Origin: Lodderomyces elongisporus
Taxonomy: Eukaryota > Ascomycota > Pichiomycetes > Serinales > Debaryomycetaceae
DNA length: 64,000 bases
Direction of reading: 5' to 3'
Assembly (NCBI RefSeq): GCF_030384665.1
Contig: NC_083673.1
Coordinates: 877,501 to 941,500, forward strand
The notes below the pieces were generated by a model. That model was not told the origin of the DNA and ran no database searches. It was given only the letters and a program-made list of their open reading frames with translations. Of the stretch, positions 3,729 through 54,463 are shown one piece after another; the stretch's first letter is position 1, and the number at the start of each line of letters is the position of its first letter. The position numbers and the translations under genes are program-made.

Positions 3729-5294
3729 TTACTTAGCTTCGGCCTTTGGTTTCTTCTTTTTCTCTCTCTTTTTACTAGCCTCAGCAACTAATTCCTCAAA
3801 TACCCTTGCTTCTTCGTCCTCGGCCTCTGTCCTCGTTATACTGGAAAAGACTTCACCAATGTACTTCATCGCTTGAGCTCTCGCTACTCTTTTTTCCAAT
3901 GGTACTTCCTCATCATCTAAAACCAAATCGCAGACGGCACGCAAAGTTCCTTGGATCTCAAACTTGGATCCATTCCATGCAGCCGCTAACACTTTAGCAA
4001 GCAAAAACTTTTCCATCTCGGCCAAATCTTCGGCCGTGTGCTTTGTTGGTTCAGCTTGGGGTTTCAGACCTTTACTATCCTCACCTAAAGTTTCGTTTAC
4101 AGTATCCTTAGAAGTCTCCTTTGGAATCTCGCCTAACGTCTCCTTGGCTTGTGCTTCTTCTTGTTCGCGATGTACTTTATCTAGTTGCTCTTGTAATTTA
4201 GACTTTTCCGCATCGGCATTCTTCTTTTTCATCTCCTCCTCCTCTGCCTCTTTCTTTGCATGATATTCATTGTCCTGTTGCATCTGCGCATATTCTTCCA
4301 TTGTTCGTTGAGCATCAAGAGCCGCAGAAATCGTTCTAAAAGTATCTTTAACAACTCCACCCTTCTCTTTGACCGATGCCCATAAACCACCCCACCCAAA
4401 AAATGTTTGGTTTTTTAGTAAAATCTTGGATTTGCTTTTGTATACAAGTCCAATGGTGTGCAAAATCTCCAACCCAAAACTCTCCATTTTGAGTGACTCG
4501 GCCTCATATTTAATTTTCGCTTTAAATGATTCTACCACATCGTCTTTCATATCTGTTTCCGTCAATAGCGAAAGCTTCTCAATCAACTTCTTAGCCAATT
4601 CATTCCTTGTTTCAATCTTCTTTATCCTACACTCTTCTTCAAATTTTTCCAACTCCTCCTTCCTCCTCTTCTCCTCTTGTTCCTTGCGCGTTAGCTTGGT
4701 GTCATCATGCGCCGCATTTGAAAGTAGTTTTTGGTTACTTGAAGAACTAAATGGTCTTTCATCGGTATCCTGTGATTCTTGTGCTGCATGTTCGCTATAT
4801 GTAGGTGTATTTTTTGAATCCTTTGCACCTTTCTCGTTTCCTCCTGATCCCTCTTTCTTTTCGTTTTTCCCCTGAGTTTCGTTCTCCTCCTTCTTAGTCA
4901 CGTCATCTTTGCCATTATTATCATCATCATCATCGCCGTATCCAGAGAGTTCAGCAGACTTTGTCAATTCTTGAAGCAAACTCAACTCTCCGATCCAATC
5001 CTTGAATGCCTCTCCACCAAAGATCATGGAGAAAAACTCTGCTGGGTCTTCAAACCCTTCTGATGGTATTGATTCCTGTTTACCATACTTATCATACTTG
5101 GCTCGCAATGCGTCATCACTCAAGACCTGATATGCCTGACCAACTTCTTGGAATTTCGCAGCAGCGGTCGGATCATTGGGATTCTTGTCGGGGTGCAAAC
5201 GTATAGCCGCCTTTCTATAAGCTTTTTTGATTTCAAGTGAAGTAGCTGTGACTTCAATGCCAAGTAAGTCGTAGTATTCTGTATCAACAACCAT
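3729..5294 (-). CDS. Type C J-domain co-chaperone of the Caj1/Djp1 family
   Basis: 521 codons with an ATG start. The J domain occupies residues 5-70 with the HPD motif at 34-36. Next comes the segment EFFSMIFGGEAFKDWIGEL (about 86-105), which marks the DnaJ-X (Caj1/Djp1) branch. There is no Gly/Phe region or CXXCXGXG zinc repeat. A charged low-complexity insert (about 120-225) separates this from a conserved helical X domain and a Lys/Glu-rich tail. Caj1 and Djp1 are 391 and 432 residues, so this copy is enlarged by the insert. Family role: stimulation of Hsp70 ATPase; Djp1 helps peroxisomal and mitochondrial precursor import in the cytosol. I cannot decide between Caj1 and Djp1 orthology. 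Confidence 0.88.
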   Translation of the reverse strand: MVVDTEYYDLLGIEVTATSLEIKKAYRKAAIRLHPDKNPNDPTAAAKFQEVGQAYQVLSDDALRAKYDKYGKQESIPSEGFEDPAEFFSMIFGGEAFKDWIGELSLLQELTKSAELSGYGDDDDDNNGKDDVTKKEENETQGKNEKKEGSGGNEKGAKDSKNTPTYSEHAAQESQDTDERPFSSSSNQKLLSNAAHDDTKLTRKEQEEKRRKEELEKFEEECRIKKIETRNELAKKLIEKLSLLTETDMKDDVVESFKAKIKYEAESLKMESFGLEILHTIGLVYKSKSKILLKNQTFFGWGGLWASVKEKGGVVKDTFRTISAALDAQRTMEEYAQMQQDNEYHAKKEAEEEEMKKKNADAEKSKLQEQLDKVHREQEEAQAKETLGEIPKETSKDTVNETLGEDSKGLKPQAEPTKHTAEDLAEMEKFLLAKVLAAAWNGSKFEIQGTLRAVCDLVLDDEEVPLEKRVARAQAMKYIGEVFSSITRTEAEDEEARVFEELVAEASKKREKKKKPKAEAK

Positions 5295-43215: not shown

Positions 43216-46200
43216 TTACCACAATCGGCTGCGACTCGAGCCAAGGGTTTTTATAATATCCTTACGATACATCAAGCTTGGTGGAACAAATTTTCCTAAA
43301 TTAGCTGGTTGTGACTCCTCCAGCTTACCAGTGCGCAAGTCTCTCACTATCGAATCATCACTATAATCAAAGCCAGTCATGAATTTCAAATCAACCTCTA
43401 TGCAAGTCAGAGTTTCAATTTTTTCAGCAACTAATGAAAACTTTTCCTTAATGCCAGGCATGATATCATCGTATTTGACAAACTTTAATGACAAATTTTG
43501 AAATAATTTTTCTCCTTCTTGTTTACTATCCAACGTTCCATTATACAGTTGCTTCTTAGTGTCTAATCCGATCAAAGGATAGTACAATTTCCACAACTTA
43601 GATTTGTCTGCTGATTCTATTTCATTTTGTAAAACCTTGGACTCAGAGCCTCTAGAACTTAAAAGATTTTCAAAGGGAGTGAGCGTGAGAAGTGAGATGT
43701 GGAGATCTAACACAAATTTATGCTCGTTGATAACAAAAATGTATAATGGCAAGTACTTTGCAATTGTAAACTCAGTTGGCTTGGAATTGAACCTCACACG
43801 CTTTAATCCAATAGGATAGTACTCTAATGCTTTGATTTTTCTCAACTCAGTTTTGCGTGCTTCAAGTTCCTTGCGCCTTGCCTCTTCTTCCAATGCCTGT
43901 CGAAGATCCTCTTGTTTCTTTAACTCGGCTTGAATTCTTTCTTCTTCGAGCCTTTTGTCTTCCTCTTCTTTTCTCTTCATTTCACGTTCTTTTTCATACT
44001 TTAAAAACATCTCTCTTCTTGCTCTCTTTTTAGCCTCGGCTTTTTCCTGCCAAATTCTTGCTTCCTCAGCATTTTTGGCCTTTTGCTCCTCCAGAATCTT
44101 GATAACAGGTACTGGCGACGGCGAGCGTTCTTTGGCGAGACCAACATCTTTTTCCGGTAAGATAGAGTTTGGAGATATAGAACGCTCGTTGGTATGCGTT
44201 TTCGGTTGATCTTTATTATCATCAAAAAGTTTGGCTACCGCATGATTGTGCAAAGGAAGGGGTGAGAGAACTGGTGCAGGTGATGATATTGAAGCTGAAG
44301 TCACAACTGGTGCCGTTCCTGATGTTGAGCCAGGTGCGGAACCCAGTAATGAAACCGCTTTCGATTCCGAGTTTTTAGAAGAATTCTCAGACTTGATTTT
44401 CTTGAAACTAAAAGACTCTTCAGCTGACAAGCCATGATTAGCTTTTCTTTTCCTTGATGATTCTTCATGTGTATCCTTAAATTCTGCTTGTAAATCTTCA
44501 TCCTGATCATTCTCATTCCCTTGTGCATCTTGAGTATATTGCTCATCAACTTCCATTGTATCGTAAGTTCTGCTGCCCTTTTCATTCTTAGTTTTGAGAT
44601 CTTGTTTATTTACATCAAGGTCTTTTTCACTAGCACTAGCGTTCTTCTTGCTCAAATCAACATTAATTACGTCATTTTTATCAACGCTTTGTACATCATC
44701 TTGTGAATCATTGTTTCCATCATGATTATTCTTTCTTTCTATTCTCTTGTTAAGCTTTTTCTGATCTTTTGACTTTGTGAATTCTTCCAACTCTAAAGAT
44801 TTCTCAGTTCTTAATGACCCTTGTAGAATGTCTACCTTTTGTTCGTTATTATCCTTCTTCTCCCTCTCCTTCGCTTCCTTTTCCTTCTCTTCCTCCTCTT
44901 CCTCGTCTTCTTCCTCATCATCCTCATCTTCAGAAACGGGTACGGAGGGTGCTTTTGACAGTGATCTGGACGTCACCCTGGAAACAATTCTTGATGGAAC
45001 AGTTGACAAAATTTTAGTACCGCTCTTTTTCTCCATGAAATTCTGAATCATTTCAATTTCCTCAACATCAAACCTAGGGGAGTGTTGAGCAATCTCCAAT
45101 GCATTTAAGCCATCTTTCTTTCTAGTCTTGAATGGGTCAGCACCTTTCGATAAAAGAGAATGGACAACCTCTGAATGGCCGCGACCAATAGATGCCAAAA
45201 GTGCTGTGATTCCACATGGGCTCTCGGTATCAATGTTGTACTGTGTTGGGTTCAATCCCAAAATGATATCAATCAATTCTGAATGCCCGTTCCTAGCAGC
45301 AATGATCAAAATGTCTGGTTTGTCTTCAAGACTGTTTCCTGAGACAAAATGATTAGCAACAAACTCCTTGTGATTCTCCGCGGCCCATTTATATATGCCT
45401 TTGCGTTTGATTAAATTGGCAAAATATGCTTCGTTAGGATCATCTTTGACTTCGACATTGGGTAAGGGAGACCCTATTCTTGACAAGTTTTTACCAACCT
45501 GGCGTGAAGTTAAAGAAATATTAGCCTTCTCCAACACTTTGATTATCTCATCGTAACCTTCTTCGCCATCGTGCTCGTTATAGATTTTCGTCAATGCAGT
45601 GAATCCATCAATATTGAAAATCGTTGGATCTGCGCCATGCTCTAATAAAATCTTTACAGTACCAAGGTGTTTATTCTCGGCTGCATCAATTAAAGGAGTT
45701 TCACAGTCACCTGCTTCATCGGCTTTAGCATTAACGTCGGCACCATTTTCGATAAGAAATTTCACAATTTCATCATGACCCTCGAGTGCTGCTTCGTGAA
45801 GACAAGTGAAGCCACAAAAATCTTTTTCATTCGCGCTTGCGCCTCGGTTGATAAATTCTTTGACATCATCGAAATTTCCCTTTTTGCATGCTCGCTGAAG
45901 TAAAGATCTTCCACTTGAGTCTCGTTTAATTTTGTAAGGTGCTTTCTTAATAGACTTGCCCGGTACAAGTTTCTTTTCAGATTTCATTTGTTGTGGTTGT
46001 TGTGGTTGTGGCAGTTGTTGCGGTTGTTGTTGAGGCAGTTGGGGTTGTTGTTGAGGAAGTTGCGGTTGTTGTTGAGGCAGTTGGGGTTGTTGTTGAGGAA
46101 ATTGCGGTTGGTTTTTTGGCAATGAGGATGGGTTTTCACTTGTGGCCAAATCCAATAAGGCATCTTCTTCGTCTGAGCTTATGGCAACAGCTCTCCTCTT

Positions 46201-48273
46201 CAATTTGGATCTTTCCTTATCGTGAGGTCGCTTTCGCATTAGTTTTCTCGAAACCTGGAATCGAGGCGGCGATCCTACAACAGTTTCAGCTTCAGACAGA
46301 TCCTCTTCTGCATTTACTTCATCGTCAAGACGACCATCATGATCATTTTCGGAATTTGCCTTTAGTAATGGTTTCATAGTGGATGTGCTGATAGTGTTGT
46401 TGTTGTTGTTGTTGTTGTTATGATGATTGACACTAACATCTTTTTCTTCGCTTTTCACTCCAAGTGTATGCTTTGCTAAAGGATCATTGGTGTTGTTTAA
46501 TTTCTTTTCTTTTTCTGATGATTTGTCACTATTTATTACTATGTCTTTTTCCTTTGGTTTCAGGTCCTCTGTTAATTCCAATGTATCATGTTTGTTAAGT
46601 TTGAGTGGTTCTTTAGCCAATAACTCATCATTCAGCTTCGTCTTTTCAGATACTTCATCAGCGATCTTTTCCAGAATAGACAGTTCATGATTCTCCTTCA
46701 TCAAAGTATCTTGGCCTATCGTGGATTGCTGTTTGTGCTTATCTTCGCTCAAACTCTTTTCATGATCAGCAGCTTTAACATGCACATGTTCAAATTTCTT
46801 TTCCATATTTCCAATTTTAATTTCTTCTGCGACTTTGTTGTCAATACAGCTTTTCTCAGGCGCTGGTTTTTCATCATCGAGTTTTTGTTCTTCCAAGATT
46901 GCCTTATTGCCTTCTTTGGATTCCTCTGTTAATCTCTTGGCTCTTTCTTTAGCCGATTTCATATATTCGGAAAAAGATGTTCTTTTCTTTACTGGAGCTG
47001 GTGGATCATTTGATTCATTGTCCTTCTTTTCAGAAGCTTTATCTTCAATATTATCTGGGCTGAAATTTAAATTTTCCTTCGTTTTAGTAGCAGTCGAAAC
47101 AACTACCGGTTCATTAATTTTGATGTCTGACAATGGTTGCTCCTTATGTTCCTTTTTAATAGTTTCTTGTCCAACCACGTAGTCTCTGCTATTGTTCATC
47201 TTTTTCTTAATTGATTCTTCTTCACAATCTTCAGACTTTGATATTCGTGATCTATCCATACTGCTCTTTTGCTCTGTATCGTCCCCACTCCAAGACTTTC
47301 TCTTTTTCGACAAAAGATTTTCTCCCTTTAAATCACTAACATTCAGTTTCTCTTTCTCCTCAATCTGCTTTCTCTCTTTCTCGCTTTCAATCTTTGGTTC
47401 CGACTTATAATCTTTGGAGTTGATCCTTATGCTTGATTCATATTTGCTTTTGCCATCGTACTCTGGTGTAGTCAGCCGCTTACTAAACATATCCCTACTA
47501 TTGTTATTGTTATTGCCATTGCCGCTTCCACTTCCACTACCATTATAGCTTCTTGATGTGTATTTTTCAGTACGTTCTATTCGTCCTGTTCCGCCACCCA
47601 TACCACTTATGCTGGTATTTGTATTGTTCTTACTAGCATTACTATTATTGTTTCCTCCAACAGCAGCCGAGCTAAAGCTGGACGCATACTTATCTACCCT
47701 GCGTCTATTTCCATAGTAAGTGTCTCCCTGGCTTCCGCCTCCAGCTCCACTACCTCCCCCACCTGCTCCTCCTGAACCACTAATTCTTCGATCCAGGGAA
47801 AATGAACTTCCACTAATCATTGCTTCTCTTTGACTTCCTCTTTGGCCTCCTCTATCTCCTCTATCTTTTCGTTCTCCGCCAGTATTCCCCTTGTAATAAG
47901 ATTTGGGTTTTGATTTTGAGTAGTGATCATACCGCGACTTGTACCCTGAGCCTAAATATAGGTCTCTTTCCCTGGGTGGTTTCGAAGAGGATTGAAATGC
48001 TGATGATGATGAAATCATGTCTCTATCTCTTTCGCGTACTCTATCGCGGTCTCTGTCTCTGTCTCTGTCTCTGTCTCTGTCTCTGTCTCTGTCTCTGTCT
48101 CTGTCTCTATCTCTATCTCTATCTCGAGAATCATACAGCCGCCCTCCATTACTGTTATTATTTCCTCCTCCACCTCCTTTGCGATCAGGGTCTTTTCGAA
48201 ATGAAGAGGACGACGATGATGCATTGAATCGTGGTGTGTAATGGCTTGAACCATTAGGTTTGTTGTATGACAT
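43216..48273 (-). CDS. HOS4: Ankyrin-repeat subunit of the Set3 histone deacetylase complex (Hos4-like)
   Basis: 1685 codons with an ATG start; Sc Hos4 (YIL112W) has 1083. A long disordered N-terminal half has an (Arg-Asp)n stretch (about 50-78) coded by a hexamer repeat, Gly/Ser/Asn-rich parts and a Lys/Glu-rich part with many Ser. A Pro-Gln repeat follows at about 715-765. Ankyrin repeats cover about 787-1100: RSLLQRACKKGNFDDVKEFI, CGFTCLHEAALEGHDEIVKF, ETPLIDAAENKHLGTVKILL, and later ITALLASIGRGHSEVVHSLL. An acidic run, a coiled coil (about 1395-1470) and a conserved C-terminal domain (LEYYPIGLKRVRFNS, IKTLGSSRS) follow. Set3C uses Hos2 and Hst1 deacetylases on coding chromatin; in Candida it influences morphogenesis and biofilms. 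A retroelement lies 512 bp upstream. Confidence 0.85.
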   Translation of the reverse strand: MSYNKPNGSSHYTPRFNASSSSSSFRKDPDRKGGGGGNNNSNGGRLYDSRDRDRDRDRDRDRDRDRDRDRDRDRDRDRVRERDRDMISSSSAFQSSSKPPRERDLYLGSGYKSRYDHYSKSKPKSYYKGNTGGERKDRGDRGGQRGSQREAMISGSSFSLDRRISGSGGAGGGGSGAGGGSQGDTYYGNRRRVDKYASSFSSAAVGGNNNSNASKNNTNTSISGMGGGTGRIERTEKYTSRSYNGSGSGSGNGNNNNNSRDMFSKRLTTPEYDGKSKYESSIRINSKDYKSEPKIESEKERKQIEEKEKLNVSDLKGENLLSKKRKSWSGDDTEQKSSMDRSRISKSEDCEEESIKKKMNNSRDYVVGQETIKKEHKEQPLSDIKINEPVVVSTATKTKENLNFSPDNIEDKASEKKDNESNDPPAPVKKRTSFSEYMKSAKERAKRLTEESKEGNKAILEEQKLDDEKPAPEKSCIDNKVAEEIKIGNMEKKFEHVHVKAADHEKSLSEDKHKQQSTIGQDTLMKENHELSILEKIADEVSEKTKLNDELLAKEPLKLNKHDTLELTEDLKPKEKDIVINSDKSSEKEKKLNNTNDPLAKHTLGVKSEEKDVSVNHHNNNNNNNNTISTSTMKPLLKANSENDHDGRLDDEVNAEEDLSEAETVVGSPPRFQVSRKLMRKRPHDKERSKLKRRAVAISSDEEDALLDLATSENPSSLPKNQPQFPQQQPQLPQQQPQLPQQQPQLPQQQPQQLPQPQQPQQMKSEKKLVPGKSIKKAPYKIKRDSSGRSLLQRACKKGNFDDVKEFINRGASANEKDFCGFTCLHEAALEGHDEIVKFLIENGADVNAKADEAGDCETPLIDAAENKHLGTVKILLEHGADPTIFNIDGFTALTKIYNEHDGEEGYDEIIKVLEKANISLTSRQVGKNLSRIGSPLPNVEVKDDPNEAYFANLIKRKGIYKWAAENHKEFVANHFVSGNSLEDKPDILIIAARNGHSELIDIILGLNPTQYNIDTESPCGITALLASIGRGHSEVVHSLLSKGADPFKTRKKDGLNALEIAQHSPRFDVEEIEMIQNFMEKKSGTKILSTVPSRIVSRVTSRSLSKAPSVPVSEDEDDEEEDEEEEEEKEKEAKEREKKDNNEQKVDILQGSLRTEKSLELEEFTKSKDQKKLNKRIERKNNHDGNNDSQDDVQSVDKNDVINVDLSKKNASASEKDLDVNKQDLKTKNEKGSRTYDTMEVDEQYTQDAQGNENDQDEDLQAEFKDTHEESSRKRKANHGLSAEESFSFKKIKSENSSKNSESKAVSLLGSAPGSTSGTAPVVTSASISSPAPVLSPLPLHNHAVAKLFDDNKDQPKTHTNERSISPNSILPEKDVGLAKERSPSPVPVIKILEEQKAKNAEEARIWQEKAEAKKRARREMFLKYEKEREMKRKEEEDKRLEEERIQAELKKQEDLRQALEEEARRKELEARKTELRKIKALEYYPIGLKRVRFNSKPTEFTIAKYLPLYIFVINEHKFVLDLHISLLTLTPFENLLSSRGSESKVLQNEIESADKSKLWKLYYPLIGLDTKKQLYNGTLDSKQEGEKLFQNLSLKFVKYDDIMPGIKEKFSLVAEKIETLTCIEVDLKFMTGFDYSDDSIVRDLRTGKLEESQPANLGKFVPPSLMYRKDIIKTLGSSRSRLW
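45990..46110. repeat. Imperfect 21-bp coding repeat for Pro-Gln in HOS4
   Basis: Units coding PQQQPQ(L/S/F) in tandem. The variable codon is CTG in three units, CTT in one and TTT in one, so under the CTG-serine code the units read S, L and F. Confidence 0.8.
48050..48126. repeat. Hexamer microsatellite TCTCTG/TCTCTA coding (Arg-Asp)n in HOS4
   Basis: About twelve tandem units, keeping the HOS4 frame since the period is six. Length variation would change the RD run without frameshift. The antisense and other frames give the spurious Leu/Ser-rich frames in this area. Confidence 0.88.
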
Positions 48274-48780
48274 TATTGCAAATGACTTGACACTTCTCTT
48301 TTGGTTCTGATTGATTTCAATGGTGCATTCACTGTTGGTTTATTCAAAGAAAACTCCAAACCAGAATTAAAAATGAAAGCAAAGAAGCGAAAAGTAAAAA
48401 GTGAAAAGTGAAAAGTGAAAAGTGCAAATAAGGAAATAAGGAAATAAGGAAATAAAAAACAATTTATATGGATAATCACAATCCTATAGTATAATTCTGT
48501 TGATCTTTCTTGTCAAATAAAATATGTTGATTTATGATTCAAACGATATATCCTTCTTAAACTATTCTGAATGGGGCTGGAAGGGAAGGACAATAAAGAT
48601 GAATGCAACACTCGCTTTTGTCTGTAGAATATTGTTGTTTAGAGCAAGTTTGTATACGAGTGTATCCTCAATACAGTGTTTTTCTAAATTTTTTTATGGT
48701 TCTCTGTTGGTTATTTCGTTTGGGACGTTTCAAACCTCTGAGTGTTGTCCTTTTTTTAAATCTTTTAACTTAAGGACACA
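48274..48780. other. HOS4 promoter-side region, interrupted by a retroelement
   Basis: 507 bp between the HOS4 ATG and the element's target duplication. It contains AAAAGTG heptamers (48383-48423) and an AAATAAGG repeat (48426-48450). No gene seen. The rest of the original promoter region lies beyond the insertion. Confidence 0.65.
48383..48423. repeat. AAAAGTG heptamer array in the HOS4 leader
   Basis: Tandem units AAAAGT(G/A) about 110-150 bp upstream of the HOS4 ATG, very similar to the array in front of the MFS gene at 18693-18812, in the same orientation relative to the gene. Confidence 0.8.
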
Positions 48781-48785
48781 ATCAG
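48781..48785 (+). repeat. Left target-site duplication ATCAG
   Basis: The five bases next to the left LTR are identical to those next to the right LTR (51637-51641), as made by staggered integrase cutting. Confidence 0.93.
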
Positions 48786-48993
48786 TGTTGGTAATATACC
48801 GCTACCACGTGAGCGATAAAAGGTATAAATATGCCAACCGAATAGGAAAAGTTTTCACCTCTCACGTACTTGTAGAAGGAGGGTTAGTAAGTCGTATAAT
48901 ATAGCATAATACATGAGAATTACGTTGTTCCACTCCTATATAAGACAAGGTAGCAACTGCTTGTGTATAACGAAAGGCGAAAACATGCGAACA
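48786..48993 (+). repeat. Left (5') LTR, 208 bp
   Basis: Begins TGTTGG and ends GAACA, with short terminal inverted repeats TGTT/AACA. It contains an E-box CACGTG (48806-48811), TATAAATA (48824-48831) and TATATAAG (48937-48944), either of which could serve as TATA box for the element RNA. Confidence 0.95.
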
Positions 48994-49003
48994 GATTAGA
49001 AGT
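48994..49003 (+). other. Primer-binding site for tRNA-Arg(UCU) anticodon arm
   Basis: GATTAGAAGT starts at the first base after the LTR. Its complement ACTTCTAATC equals the anticodon-loop region of tRNA-Arg(UCU) (C32-U33-UCU-A37-A38-U39-C40 with A31), as I remember the S. cerevisiae sequence. The primer would thus be a 5' tRNA fragment cut in the anticodon stem rather than the CCA end. Ty5 is known to use an anticodon-stem-loop primer (initiator Met). Confidence 0.75.
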
Positions 49004-49167
49004 ATATACTGAATGTTTTTGTCTGGATATGTTTTACTTCTGAAAACCCTCTTTTGGTCGGACAAGTTGATGTTGAAGGTACAAATGGCTTTAGAGTCAA
49101 GGGAGAGACAAGCTCACCACGGCAAAACGCCCCAAGAATGTCACCACTGAAAAAAGTGCCAGTAGAG

Positions 49168-49315
49168 CCAACAGTGCCAACAGTGACAGTATAGTCTACA
49201 GTGTCAATAGTGCCAACAGTGCCAACAGTGACAGTATAGTCTACAGTGTCAATAGCGCCAACAGTGCCAACAGTGTCAATAGCGCCAACAGTGCCAACAG
49301 TGTCGATAGTGCCAA
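49168..49315 (+). repeat. Internal minisatellite of CCAACAGTG / CAGTGTCAATAG units
   Basis: About 150 bp of nested units: two 45-bp periods that include GACAGTATAGTCTAC, then two 27-bp periods lacking that part. A minus-strand frame of 137 codons runs through it (Gly-Thr-Val, Asp-Thr-Val repeats), but the repeat alone explains it. Confidence 0.85.
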
Positions 49316-49680
49316 TATTGCTGTATATTAGACGGGAGTTGAGCAAACGCTTCTCAGTGATTACATCTTCCATTAAATTGACATAACCATACCTGCTCAA
49401 CCAACACAATCACCACCGAATACAAACTGCTCAAGCACAGTATGCTTGAAAACAGACATCGCTGGACATTCAAGGGAGTTTTTTCCTTCTACTATTATGA
49501 TAGTGATATTTGAATGAAGAATTAGCCATATTTGAAAACTCAGAATTTTAAATATTTGGTATTAACCCTCATCAGAATTCCGGCACATCAAATGTAGCTA
49601 AAAAGCTAAGCTACAACCAAAACCAAAATCCTCAATGCGAGGTAATGGGGTAACTTAAAACCTCCCCATTCTTACATATT

Positions 49681-49710
49681 ATTCCTGAGGCGATAATGCC
49701 AATGGAAACC
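49681..49710 (+). repeat. Diverged copy of the ATTCCTGGG repeat
   Basis: Begins ATTCCTGAGGCGATAATGCC; it aligns with the 79-bp repeat units at 50699-50889 at about three of four positions, showing that the interior grew by repeated duplication. Confidence 0.55.
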
Positions 49711-50698
49711 AATTAACGTTAGAACCAAGGAAAGTACAGAATGATACAAATCAACATGATGTTCTTCCTTTGGCTAACATCCATTTCTTATTGTTCGTGA
49801 AGTTAACGAGAGACCATGTTCTTACCGGTTTATCATTTACGTTACTTCGCCCAACAAAACCATCACATCTCAATTTGCACTCTTTTCTTAGGGATTAAAG
49901 TCAGCGCAAAGATAGTTTGACGATTTCGTTCCTTTGATAACGAAACACGCCACTATTTTAGTCGTCATTTTAATCAAGGGAGATACGCCATGAGATGCCC
50001 AAATGATCGAGATGCGGATAGGTTTTTACATTCTCGACAATGCTTTCCGTCCGAAGATAATGCTTATCAGATAGCCAATTACACTCGCTACTTTCAGCCT
50101 GTCACACTCCACTACCACTATAAGGGAGACTCTTGCCTCTAGCTAATCACTGCCAAGACAAGTGTCAAGGGAGACAGTAGTGGAAGAGTCGAGTTTGAGC
50201 TAAGCTGAATAGCTAAGGAGAAGAGATTATACCACGTGCGCACATCCCGGAAAACGTAATGATTGAGTGAAGAAGGAATGAATGCTTGAAAGTAAACATT
50301 TCAGCAATAAAGACATCCCTTACCCCTTTTCAATATCATGCGTTGTTCATCTTTAATAAGAACGCCTAAACCTTATTCACTTCTCCATGCAACCAAAGAA
50401 TTTCACCAGCAGCATAACAGCGATGTGATGAGATTCAAGGGAGAGTGTAGCTATATCGAAGCAGAGGTGTATGGTGTTAAAGTACTGGGCGTGTTAAAGA
50501 CTCATTACTGTACATGAGGATGATCTGAATTGGGAGCGTGTCTTAGAATCCATCTGATGCTAACTTAAAGTAAGAATCTATCAAACATGGGCAATGGATA
50601 GCGAAGAGAGCTAGAACCTACCGTCATCAAGTTCTTAAACAAACCGAGAACTCATTCATACTGAGTCTCATGAGGAAAGCAGCTTCCTCATAATAATC

Positions 50699-50889
50699 CC
50701 ATTCCTGGGCTGCGAGAAATACAGGAAGACCGCGACCTCTAGCGAGAGGCATTGAAGACTCATTATCTTCAATGCTATTCCTGGGACGAAGGTGCCCACG
50801 GAAGACCCCAACCTCTGTTTTGAGAGGCATTGCAGGCGAGCACCCTAGCAATGCTATTCCTGGGACGAAGGTGCCCACGGAAGACCCCA
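50699..50889 (+). repeat. 79-bp repeat units with conserved CCTCT...AGAGG hairpin
   Basis: Two exact 40-bp blocks start at 50771 and 50850 (period 79), both beginning AATGCTATTCCTGGGACGAA. A diverged unit precedes them at 50699. The first two units contain a short palindrome, CCTCT-AGCG-AGAGG (50736-50749) and CCTCT-GTTTTG-AGAGG (50812-50827): the stem is kept while the loop changes. Confidence 0.85.
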
Positions 50890-51420
50890 CGGCGTTGACA
50901 GGCCCTGATGTTACAGTGTCCAATACAAAAGACCAATACGTAACACAACCTCAATCTTCGCCCAACACCACACCTGAAGGAATCACCTTCATATTTTACA
51001 AGAACACATAAAATGTGTCGAGACACCTTAGTTTTAACTCCTTATCCGAGAGTACGTGATTAAACATCAAGGAAATTCCATACAGTTGAAGATTATCCTT
51101 CCCACTTGAACGATATTCCTATCGATTCCGTGTCAACATAACTTATCTTTTGACAATGACATCAATGTATCGTTTCGGGGCCTACTTTCTTCGGGAACAG
51201 AAAAGTAAACGAGGTTGTAATCCATATATTCAGTATTCCTGTTCAACGAATTAGGAGATGTTTTTTAATGATGACTAGCTCTGCAAGAAACAGAGATGGT
51301 TACCGCTTTTGACTTCTATCTTAAAAAGGAACTATTCGAATTCCATATTTATGTTTGCATGCATCAAAGACAATGAGGACGTAGTCCATTATGATAAGAA
51401 ACTTCTATAACAAACTACGC

Positions 51421-51428
51421 CAAGGGAG
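51421..51428 (+). other. Polypurine tract CAAGGGAG
   Basis: AAGGGAG abuts the right LTR, in the place of the plus-strand primer of LTR elements. Confidence 0.8.
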
Positions 51429-51636
51429 TGTTGGTAATATACCGCTACCACGTGAGCGATAAAAGGTATAAATATGCCAACCGAATAGGAAAAGTTTTCA
51501 CCTCTCACGTACTTGTAGAAGGAGGGTTAGTAAGTCGTATAATATAGCATAATACATGAGAATTACGTTGTTCCACTCCTATATAAGACAAGGTAGCAAC
51601 TGCTTGTGTATAACGAAAGGCGAAAACATGCGAACA
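51429..51636 (+). repeat. Right (3') LTR, 208 bp
   Basis: Same length as and apparently identical sequence to the left LTR, ending GAACA just before the second ATCAG. Confidence 0.95.
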
Positions 51637-51641
51637 ATCAG
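51637..51641 (+). repeat. Right target-site duplication ATCAG
   Basis: Matches 48781-48785. The pre-insertion site would read AAGGACACA-ATCAG-TTTCTAG. Confidence 0.93.
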
Positions 51642-52276
51642 TTTCTAGTCTTTCTTTCTTTGTTTCTTTGTTTCTCTCTTTTTCTCCTTCTCTCTTTCTC
51701 TCTCTCTCTTCCTCCCTCATTATATACATATATTTTTTCTGGCTATGACAACCAAAATCTCTGCTTTGCTTTTTTTTCCCTTCTTCCATCTTTAACTCCC
51801 AGCAAAATATTACACATTAAACATTTTGAAAAAAGTCGTGTCTGTGTCCAGATTACCAAATACCCTACTCTAAAGTATTCACAGGTAAGGGACCAAAGGT
51901 ATTTGCAGCCACGAGAACTAGGAATAAGGACAATTGTTGTTTCGCTTCCTCTCTTTGTCATATTTAGTGTGGTATTTCTTCGTTGTATTTTTTTGATAAT
52001 GGTTGCTTTTTCTGAAATTGTTCTTTTCATTTAAATCAATTTTTTTTTTTTCGTTTTTACTTAGGACTCACAAAGTGTAAAAAAAAGAGGTTGGAATTAC
52101 AGTAGACTGGTTACTTTTTCTTTTTCTTTTCCTTTTTTTCTTCCTCTTTACGTTCTTTGTTTATTTGTTCATTTATTCTGGGTATCATTATTGTTTATTA
52201 CTACTGTTTTATTTTTAATTTTCATTTTTCGTTTTGTTTTAAATTAGCTTGAATCTCGACTGATCGATGACATTTC
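51642..52276. other. 3' flank of MSG5, right of the retroelement
   Basis: 635 bp. Starts with a TTCTTTG/CTCTCTC pyrimidine run (51650-51716), later poly-T blocks. No gene; a 142-codon frame at 51606-52034 begins inside the LTR with TTG and is not credible. Confidence 0.65.
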
Positions 52277-53788
52277 TCACAAGTTGATCTGCAGCGGCGA
52301 CATAATCAATAATTGCGAAGTGCTAAACTCCAATTTATTAAGCTTATCTCCAAACTCCATCAATTCAAAAATGAGACTCATATTGGGACATATCCGATCG
52401 CACTTGTCCACCACCACCACCAACTCTTTTTGTTCAATATCCTTGCTAATGACTCTTTCGGTGTTGCCATTCTTCAACATTTCATAAGCTTCATTAACAC
52501 CCATTCCAAATTTCATCATGTAGAATGCAACAATGACGCAAGCGCTCCTCGAAACCCCGCATTGACAGTGCACAAGGACTTTTAACCCCTTGCTGTAGAA
52601 CTCGTCAATCTTTTCCGTGATTGAAGACAAATCCTTAGAAATATTTGAGGTGTGTGACCATGGGACGTGGATATATTCTCGTTCACCCAAATGTTGATTG
52701 TGGTAGGTACTCGATAAATTCTTGCATTCTTTAGCAACATTAATTACAAGGTTATAATCATTGAGATCAATCTTGTTGATGGGGTCTGAGTAGAGGAAAA
52801 TCAAATCGTTGAGTACGTTTCTCGGGCCCTTGGGATAAGCATTGATTGCAGACGATTCTTGCAACTCCTCGGGTATCATAGATTTAAATTTGTACGTTAT
52901 ATTTTGTGGCGTGTGCATCATCGGCATCGGCAGCAGAAACAGTTGTTGCAGATGCAGTTGCAGTTGCAGTTGCAGTGAATGCGTCGACTGTGTAATTTCT
53001 TTGCTAAAGTTTGTCTCCAATGGCGATTCAATTGACATTTTCTTGATATTCTGCAGTAACTTAGTTGGTGTTGCATTGTGATGTGCCTGAGTGGGACTTT
53101 GCAACATTGGAGGTGTTGAGAGTGGCGATGATTTGGAATGAAGGGCAAATGGCGGTGGTGGCGGCGGTTGAGGGAGTGTTTGCATGTGTGGGTGTTTGCT
53201 TGTATTTAGATTTGCATTTGCATTTGTATTTGTATTAAGATTTAGATTCGTGGGTGCTTGCATGTCTGGAAAAAAGTTAGATGGCAATGTATGCTCATTT
53301 GCAAACAAATTGGAACCGTCGCGTATACTGCTCGTGGATGAGATTTGATCATTCTCATTTTCTGTCGTAGGGGGCATGGGGAATTTGAATTTGCGTGTTC
53401 GAATACGCTCTTCGCTATTTGATAATGATTGGAATTGGGCAATTGCAGGTGGGTTAGGAGGTGTTTGTGTTACTGATGGTGTATGCAATGCGTCTTCAGT
53501 ATAGAGCATGTTTGTTCCGTTATTTTGGAAATGTGGTCTTTTGAGACTTGATGATATGGAAGCATCTAAAGAAGATCCTCGACTAGCATCGTGTGAATTT
53601 AGATTCAATGACAAGTTCTTTGTGTTTCTGTTTAAATGGAAAGAATTGAATTTTCTAGAGTGTTTTGGTGAATAGTTTAGTAGGCCGGGTGATGAGTGGC
53701 TGGATCCATTTGAGGATACTGATGAGATTGATGATTGGTAGCCGTGTGAAAGAATATTGGTTGGAGGTCGTGGAAATGAAGATGTAGG

Positions 53789-53823
<35 letters not shown>

Positions 53824-54463
53824 TTGCAGTTTGTGTATTGTTCATGTTGTTCATGTTGTTTATGTTGTTGCTGTTATTGTTTATGTTATAATGTTTATTA
53901 CTACCATCATTTATCTGGCCAAGTGAAGTTTGAAGATGGTAATCTGGTGTATTTACTTGCGAAGCTGGGAATGGTGGAGGAGATCTAGTCAAGCTGTCTG
54001 AAGCATTTTCTTTATTCTGCTCATCTTGATGTTGTTCGTTACTCTCATTCACCTTTTCTTCTTTTTCTTCTTTTTCTTCTTCCTCTTCTTCTTCTAGTGC
54101 ATCTCCAAATTCAGATTGGGAATCTTCAAAGCTGTATCGCCTTAGATTGTGTTGAGGGCGATGTGGACTGTGTAACCTAGGCAGGTTTAATGATTGCTTT
54201 TTTAAAGTTGGTGCTTTGCTTTGGCCTGGAGCTGTTGTTGCAGACTCGTGTACAAGGCCATCCACGCTCATCATTGAATGTTCACCGGTACTTTTGCAAA
54301 GAGGGTTCCTCTCTGTTTTTGTTGCTGCTGGCACACTCAAGTTTGGCTTCAATATTTGTTTCTGGTGTTGATTGTTTGACTTAAACTCTTCGCAGTATCT
54401 ATTTGAAATGGAGTTAAATGGACCTGTGATGGGCTGGAAACTTGAGACAAAGGGACTCGACAT
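52277..54463 (-). CDS. MSG5: Dual-specificity MAP kinase phosphatase (Msg5-like)
   Basis: The open frame starts with TTG at 54637; the first ATG at 54463 gives 728 residues (MSSPFVSSFQ). The catalytic domain is at the C-terminus: the P-loop HCQCGVSRSACVIVAFYM (HCX5R) with upstream Asp/His region EREYIHVPWSH, and the AYEMLKNGN helix after it. The N-terminal 500 residues are low-complexity (Ser, Asn, Gln, an Ala9 run from GCA repeats, acidic EEEEEEKEEKEEK). Sc Msg5 (YNL053W, 489 residues) dephosphorylates Fus3 and Slt2 in pheromone and wall-integrity signalling; its ohnologue is SDP1 (YIL113W). Eight CTG codons lie at 52930-52979; as Ser they give a Gln/Ser run. A 3.7-kb spacer lies upstream. 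Confidence 0.88.
53785..53830. repeat. GCT/GCA trinucleotide run coding poly-Ala in MSG5
   Basis: About nine tandem GCT units on the + strand (GCA/GCT on the coding strand). They encode nine alanines in the disordered N-terminal region. Confidence 0.85.

Follow-up and report, generated by a model that had tools for sequence, protein, structure and literature searches.

The window analysed here is a stretch of 64,000 nt of Lodderomyces elongisporus DNA (NC_083673.1, positions 877,501 to 941,500 of the forward strand, assembly GCF_030384665.1), which contains at positions 48786-51636 a complete long terminal repeat (LTR) element with a total length of 2,851 bp. These borders are exactly those given in an earlier note made from the sequence alone (the original prediction). 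The two LTRs are 208 bp long, identical at 208/208 positions, begin with TG and end with CA (TGTTGG...CGAACA), and the 5-bp target duplication ATCAG is present on both flanks. The first bases of the interior, 0 nt from the 5' LTR, form a primer-binding site (PBS) with complementarity to a tRNA, GATTAGAAGT, and the last bases, at offset 0 to the 3' LTR, form a polypurine tract (PPT), CAAGGGAG. All of the features by which an LTR element is recognized, and which had been claimed for this one, were found, the PBS and PPT lying at the exact inner borders. The original prediction named these two sites, but neither the repetition of the PPT octamer nor the match of the PBS to tRNA-Arg(UCU) that are described below.

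The 2,435-bp interior had been predicted to code for nothing recognizable, and this was borne out. The longest stop-to-stop frame is 137 aa, a length reached by 3.5 % of 200 dinucleotide shuffles, and it passes through a tandem repeat with 9-bp and 45-bp periods. Four open reading frames (ORFs) with a length of at least 60 aa are contained entirely in the interior, and none of them gave a Pfam family. The possibility of a hidden gag-pol was rejected after a six-frame comparison with 15 genomic loci, in which the matches (E up to 0.1) were to the diverged relative of the interior on C3 (in locus L028) and, in L030, L038 and L040, to sequences covering the tandem repeat. Decayed gag or pol sequence, the discovery of which the original prediction had listed as counting against it, was thus looked for in all six frames and none was found at the sensitivity used. 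Alignment of the interior with the C3 relative gave 110 mismatches in 1077 aligned columns, and these were spread over the three phases (42/38/30), so that the segment looks unlike a gene under constraint. The element is without coding capacity, has no gag-pol and is non-autonomous.

The PPT word was set by the border of the 3' LTR and not by scanning for repeats. The octamer CAAGGGAG occurs six times in the interior, comprising the terminal copy and five internal copies, all on the same strand, compared with a shuffle expectation of 0.033-0.034 on average. If the tandem repeat and the hairpin array are left aside, it is the commonest 8-mer of the interior. With both strands counted, the remaining 61,159 bp of the window contain it once, and loci L029-L042 (138,614 bp) contain it twice. 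The copies are dispersed, with spacings of 373, 504, 191, 270 and 985 bp, the nearest internal copy starting 985 bp before the terminal one.

The sole other copy of the interior that was found, at C3:547509-548745, has no LTRs and corresponds to element positions 488-643 and 1072-2181 with 86-87 % identity; it is without a segment of ~430 bp (element 643-1072), and the genome search gave no second copy for about half of the interior length. The three internal octamers in the alignable part are all intact in this relative. Together with 10-nt flanks, the octamers showed 0 mismatches in 84 columns, compared with 5.3 expected (permutation p = 0.008), and wider flanks of 15, 20 and 25 nt gave permutation p values of 0.048, 0.034 and 0.010. 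One near-copy of the octamer carries a different single mismatch in each of the two interiors. Mismatches are unevenly distributed along the 1.1 kb that the two copies share, with between 0 and 18 in a 60-bp bin (p = 1.8e-6); the centre has fewer of them than the repeat array, a pattern for which constraint and sequence exchange are indistinguishable with two copies.

The surroundings of the C3 relative are a retroelement cluster. Part of the repeat array is found again nearby in inverted orientation (C3:549193-549406, 79 %), beyond which lies a 454-bp LTR of another family, and gypsy sequence with RVT_1 matches lies on the other side. By this comparison, the interior is old element DNA. The locus itself looks rearranged, as the inverted array piece lies 10 bp from the 454-bp LTR, which has no target duplication (L028 4510-6871), and the 521 bp of L028 4000-4520 had no further match in the genome. 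Long near-identical tandem repeats lie beside the cluster, in L028 6870-9901 and in L051 (C3:552901-562800), and the L028 stretch, the only one in which frames were scanned, contains open frames of up to 529 aa.

The features of the element are collected in Table 1. Its neighbours in the window (43216-48273 and 52277-54463) are a gene for an ankyrin-repeat protein, the ATG of which is 513 bp away from the element, and a gene for a dual-specificity phosphatase, with relatives named CPP1. For one protein encoded in the window, the closest named relatives are from Candida oxycetoniae (81 %) and from C. albicans, Spathaspora sp. JA1 and Lodderomyces beijingensis (79 % each), beside two further matches at 99 % and 82 %, which makes a CTG-Ser1 yeast of the Lodderomyces clade likely.

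Table 1. Features of the LTR element and its flanks, with positions in the window
Feature	Position	Strand
Target-site duplication ATCAG, 5' copy	48781..48785	.
5' LTR, 208 bp	48786..48993	+
PBS GATTAGAAGT, 10 nt complementary to the tRNA-Arg(UCU) anticodon arm	48994..49003	+	
Internal PPT octamer 1 (CAAGGGAG)	49098..49105	+	
Tandem repeat, 9-bp and 45-bp periods (AGTGCCAAC)	49155..49315	+	
Interior segment, 86 % relative at C3:548586-548745	49273..49428	+	
Internal PPT octamer 2, outside the C3-aligned part	49471..49478	+	
Interior segment, 87 % relative at C3:547509-548590	49857..50966	+	
Internal PPT octamer 3, intact in C3 relative	49975..49982	+	
Near-match octamer, one mismatch; different single mismatch in C3 relative	50121..50128	+	
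Internal PPT octamer 4, intact in C3 relative	50166..50173	+	
Internal PPT octamer 5, intact in C3 relative	50436..50443	+	
Array of repeats, hairpins predicted; exact repeats of 41 nt at 50770-50810 and 50849-50889	50690..50905	+	
Terminal polypurine tract CAAGGGAG abutting 3' LTR	51421..51428	+	
3' LTR, identical to 5' LTR	51429..51636	+	
Target-site duplication ATCAG, 3' copy	51637..51641	.

A tRNA pattern search of the genome gave five matches, four of which were identified as tRNA-Arg(UCU) genes by ARAGORN. In all four genes the complementarity to the PBS runs for 10 nt from the LTR border and then breaks off, which implies that the primer would be a piece of tRNA whose end lies in the anticodon arm. 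A PBS of this half-tRNA type is a feature of a subset of Ty1/copia elements (Pseudoviridae), which the present element resembles by complementarity alone; the order by which that group is recognized, with integrase upstream of RT in pol, concerns a region that this element lacks. Copia/Ty5-type priming likewise uses an internal fragment of a tRNA that stops in the anticodon arm, but there the fragment derives from initiator tRNA-Met, as apparently also at six copia junctions in this genome, rather than from tRNA-Arg(UCU). The PBS word GATTAGAAG had two matches in the window and L028-L042, one in this element and one in L038 that does not follow an LTR end. A second genome match of the PBS-junction pattern, at C2:1761790, reads by eye as ordinary gene sequence and was rejected. 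When GGTTATGAG, which we take to be complementary to half of initiator tRNA-Met (tRNA-iMet), was sought in the copia loci L033-L042, six junctions were found in four of the 10 loci (L034, L036, L040 and L042), directly after CAACA ends. A long frame runs through the site at some of these GGTTATGAG positions.

The 16.09 Mb assembly (eight contigs) was searched with the LTR and the interior separately, as the original prediction had suggested. The LTR search returned six matches from six candidates, counts that are lower bounds; two of these are the present element and four lie elsewhere, namely C8:159456 (4/208 differences, clean duplication GGTTT), C6:53298 (5/208, clean duplication GAAGA), C2:410121 (8/207, no duplication) and C6:954030 (41/207, no duplication). 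No second LTR copy was present in the 9.9-kb loci around these four, and the interior gave only the diverged C3 relative. Loci L033-L042, 10 in number, contain all 19 RVT_2 (copia reverse transcriptase) matches of the genome, and not one of these loci matched the element at E ≤ 1e-3. There were 36 RVT_1 (gypsy-type) matches, and for those that were not fetched the exclusion of the same LTR comes from the LTR search; the solo LTR on C2 has an RVT_1 remnant (C2:409867-410061) at a distance of 60 bp, in the opposite orientation. A full-length gag-pol element with the same LTR and PBS, which the original prediction had proposed to look for, was not recognized in these searches. The helper is thus absent from, or unrecognized in, this assembly, in which the element is an orphan.

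A second multicopy, non-coding LTR family is present in the genome, with 454-bp LTRs (TGTCACAG...TATGCGACA) and 5-bp duplications. Its members L053 (C6:133600-136400; identical LTRs, duplication AGGTG, longest frame 172 aa) and L054 (C7:931230-933870; nearly identical LTRs, duplication GAAGG) are 2.5-2.6 kb long, and a further member lies in L050 (1-2656). A genome search with the L053 interior, in which 40 of 67 candidates were scored, gave at least 80 matches. Over its first 878 bp this interior is 97 % identical to the leaders of larger copies, for example C1:17552-26209, in which RVT_1 (C1:23081-23584) lies within an open frame of 1529 aa; a frame of this length was found for 18 of the 36 RVT_1 matches, both statements being based on coordinates only. 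This family resembles the 2.85-kb element in its length, its lack of coding capacity, its 5-bp duplications and its identical or nearly identical LTRs, but differs in LTR, PPT and PBS candidate, in being multicopy and in having copies with a reverse transcriptase (RT) frame and the same LTR. It is an ordinary non-coding derivative beside coding partners, whereas the 2.85-kb element lacks a recognized partner. Six non-coding interiors of the 454-bp-LTR family at C5:1388341-1424910 are spaced 6,983 bp apart (last step 7,021), forming a tandem array of a larger unit.

For comparison of PPTs between elements, the 8 nt before the 3' LTR were taken as the PPT octamer. Extra exact copies of the terminal octamer were absent from L053, L054 and L033; the octamer of the L053/L054 family had two copies with one mismatch and no exact extras. 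The coding copia element in L036 contains its terminal octamer AGAGAGGG twice more inside, compared with 0.12 expected (reverse-complement positions 4794, 4893 and 6580), and these internal copies are possible counterparts of the second PPT of Ty1. Extra PPT words were not general among the few elements compared, although coding elements may contain one or two, as in Ty1, to judge from L036. The copia element at L033 4548-7515 is 2.97 kb long and has identical LTRs of ~200 bp, but its interior is short; it contains an internal inverted repeat of 79 bp.

RNA structure in the hairpin array of the element is only suggestive, predicted folding in 150-nt windows from 50686, 50786 and 50886 giving z values of -2.7, -0.5 and -2.4, and most windows resemble shuffles. 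The array units contain CCTCT..AGAGG, GCATTG..CAATGC and TTCC..GGAA, and some pairs appear compensated between units when compared by eye. A retrozyme or other known RNA was rejected, as Rfam gave three weak matches for 48600-51800 (E ≤ 5), far below the gathering scores, with no hammerhead, the ribozyme that retrozymes carry in their LTRs; nor was there any 5S rRNA- or tRNA-like match in this region, of the kind that Cassandra, Helenus and Ajax have in the LTR. Targeting of tRNA genes by the element was likewise rejected, since ARAGORN detected none of these genes in either the window or L028-L032 (with bacterial settings, under which intron-bearing tRNAs may escape).

Taken as a whole, the element is very probably a non-autonomous, non-coding LTR retrotransposon, probably of the Ty1/copia type, that was inserted via the ordinary RNA-cDNA-integrase cycle with proteins supplied in trans. 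The original prediction held that it must be mobilized in trans, and the lack of genes in a structurally intact element supports this: since the element has no genes it must have moved in trans, a probable conclusion that was reached by exclusion. The LTR carries CACGTG at 48806, TATAAA at 48824 and TATATAA at 48937, motifs that might provide promoter function. An LTR promoter would make the RNA, which would be packaged by the helper's Gag, and a tRNA-Arg(UCU) half would prime minus-strand DNA. RNase H would spare the 3'-terminal CAAGGGAG and might spare the five internal copies as well, in which case plus-strand DNA may start at several sites, and the helper's integrase would insert the finished product. 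The identity of the LTRs had been read as recent movement; the identity is confirmed, but zero differences over 208 bp bound the divergence at 1.4 % (95 %), and 'recent' is an upper bound of this kind rather than a date.

Several observations weigh against this reading. A helper with the same LTR was not recognized in the assembly by the LTR search or among the RVT_2 and RVT_1 loci, and with one full-length copy only, movement of the interior as a unit is represented by a single insertion. Gene conversion could likewise keep two LTRs identical. GATTAGAAG follows no LTR end in L028-L042, where the six copia junctions carry GGTTATGAG in the PBS position instead; the helper would thus be expected to differ from those six, or to possess an RT that accepts another primer. 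An inverted repeat bordering the PPT is described for almost half of the classic copia elements (PMC2829016); none better than in shuffles was detected at the PPT of this element (p = 0.52), but the same holds for L036, a copia element (p = 0.15), so the test says little.

As to where the interior came from, it might be the remainder of a coding element from which gag-pol was lost, whether in place or through template switching, and would then consist of leftover untranslated regions and fillers. Such an origin, which is compatible with mobilization in trans, is possible but on the unlikely side. The route seems to be active in this genome, where non-coding members of the 454-bp-LTR family keep the leader of the copies with an RT frame, and the C3 relative has its gap of ~430 bp; yet no leader or 3' region like this interior was seen in the coding elements examined, and the interior on C3 is diverged (87 %) and already non-coding, so that any coding loss predates this insertion. 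Host DNA trapped between two independent LTR insertions, which the original prediction had named as an outcome that would undo it, or host non-coding DNA captured by the element, is very improbable as the source. The interior is indeed unlike the coding elements examined, with no second genome copy for around half of it, but one matching duplication lies on the outer flanks, the LTRs are identical while the four LTR copies elsewhere show 4, 5, 8 and 41 substitutions relative to them, and the PBS and PPT lie exactly at the inner borders. The location of the only relative found within a retroelement cluster likewise makes trapped or captured host DNA unlikely.

We tentatively propose that the internal octamers may act as plus-strand primer sites, a role that we consider doubtful. 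The interior would then be a scaffold of plus-strand starts, in which, once coding had been given up, the PPT was multiplied to give six starts, double-stranded cDNA would be completed faster than that of the helper and the element would out-compete the helper for particles; this extended proposal is rather improbable, but if true, a multi-PPT interior would be a replication advantage for a retrotransposon parasite. The repeated octamer could instead be a protein-binding or RNA-packaging motif that coincides with the PPT without being a primer site, which is quite conceivable while falling short of probable. A T precedes the octamer in 5/5 internal copies and an A follows it in 4/5, whereas the terminal PPT has neither; the purine runs at the octamers are short (7 to 10 nt), and the conservation of the surrounding sequence in the C3 relative goes beyond the bare need of a primer, all of which speak for such a motif and against priming. 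Against such a motif, the word that is repeated stops precisely at the border of the LTR, and each of the 8-mers whose start is 1 to 7 nt further upstream is found once only.

Parasites of retrotransposons are common, and the role of their non-coding interiors is mostly obscure. Here a word with a known job, that of plus-strand primer, recurs far more often than expected by chance and has been retained in an old relative, which makes function testable, and the second family, with non-coding copies beside many copies with an open RT frame in a 16-Mb genome, may offer a compact system for the co-evolution of autonomous and non-autonomous elements. The original prediction placed the element with large retrotransposon derivatives (LARDs) and terminal-repeat retrotransposons in miniature (TRIMs). 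TRIMs have a total size under about 1-1.5 kb and LARDs a large non-coding interior and a total of over about 4 kb; the non-autonomous and non-coding part of the label holds, whereas the size of 2,851 bp lies outside both limits.

The further claim that such elements are rare or undescribed in CTG-clade yeasts does not stand, given the second family in the same genome and two published cases. Noncoding, non-autonomous LARD elements are described beside full-length Tps5 at the centromeres of Scheffersomyces stipitis (PMC8546629); these are likewise noncoding LTR derivatives in a CTG-Ser1 yeast, but they are centromeric and, compared by description only, the accessible text mentions no repeated purine tract. 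Tca1 of Candida albicans is described as a 5.6-kb nonautonomous element without ORFs (PMC7175516), and is called degenerate and inactive in the title of a 1998 paper in that article's reference list. It is thus also an ORF-less nonautonomous LTR element of a CTG-clade yeast, but is longer and, by that title, degenerate, compared with the identical LTRs and intact borders seen here.

The element is not a Sirevirus, a retrozyme or of the Cassandra type. We know of no earlier multi-PPT design outside plants, and among the papers listed in the literature search (mostly without subscription papers) only the Sirevirus paper described multiple identical PPTs. What is new here is the repetition of the terminal PPT five extra times inside a non-coding CTG-clade element, together with the tRNA-Arg(UCU) site. 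In plant Sireviruses, multiple identical PPT octamers are called unique to that group and of unknown role, with an average of four 8-nt copies per linker, 83 % of them within 0.5 kb of the 3' LTR (PMC2829016). The likeness lies in several identical copies of the terminal 8-nt PPT, of which there are six here, one being terminal; Sireviruses, however, code for gag-pol and have 3'-clustered PPTs, whereas the copies here are dispersed in a non-coding interior. The Sirevirus octamer AGGGGGAG, the AT/TG attachment site and the clustering at the 3' LTR were not found, CAAGGGAG abutting TG directly. One extra PPT each is described for Ty1, HIV-1 and the gypsy elements Athila4 and Calypso, and the second PPT of Ty1 and HIV-1 can start plus-strand DNA according to work cited there (PMC2829016). 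The second PPT of Ty1 and HIV-1 resembles the internal octamers in lying away from the 3' LTR, but is a single extra copy in a coding domain as opposed to five in non-coding sequence. If the internal PPTs are true ones, multiple identical PPTs would extend from plant Sireviruses to fungi.

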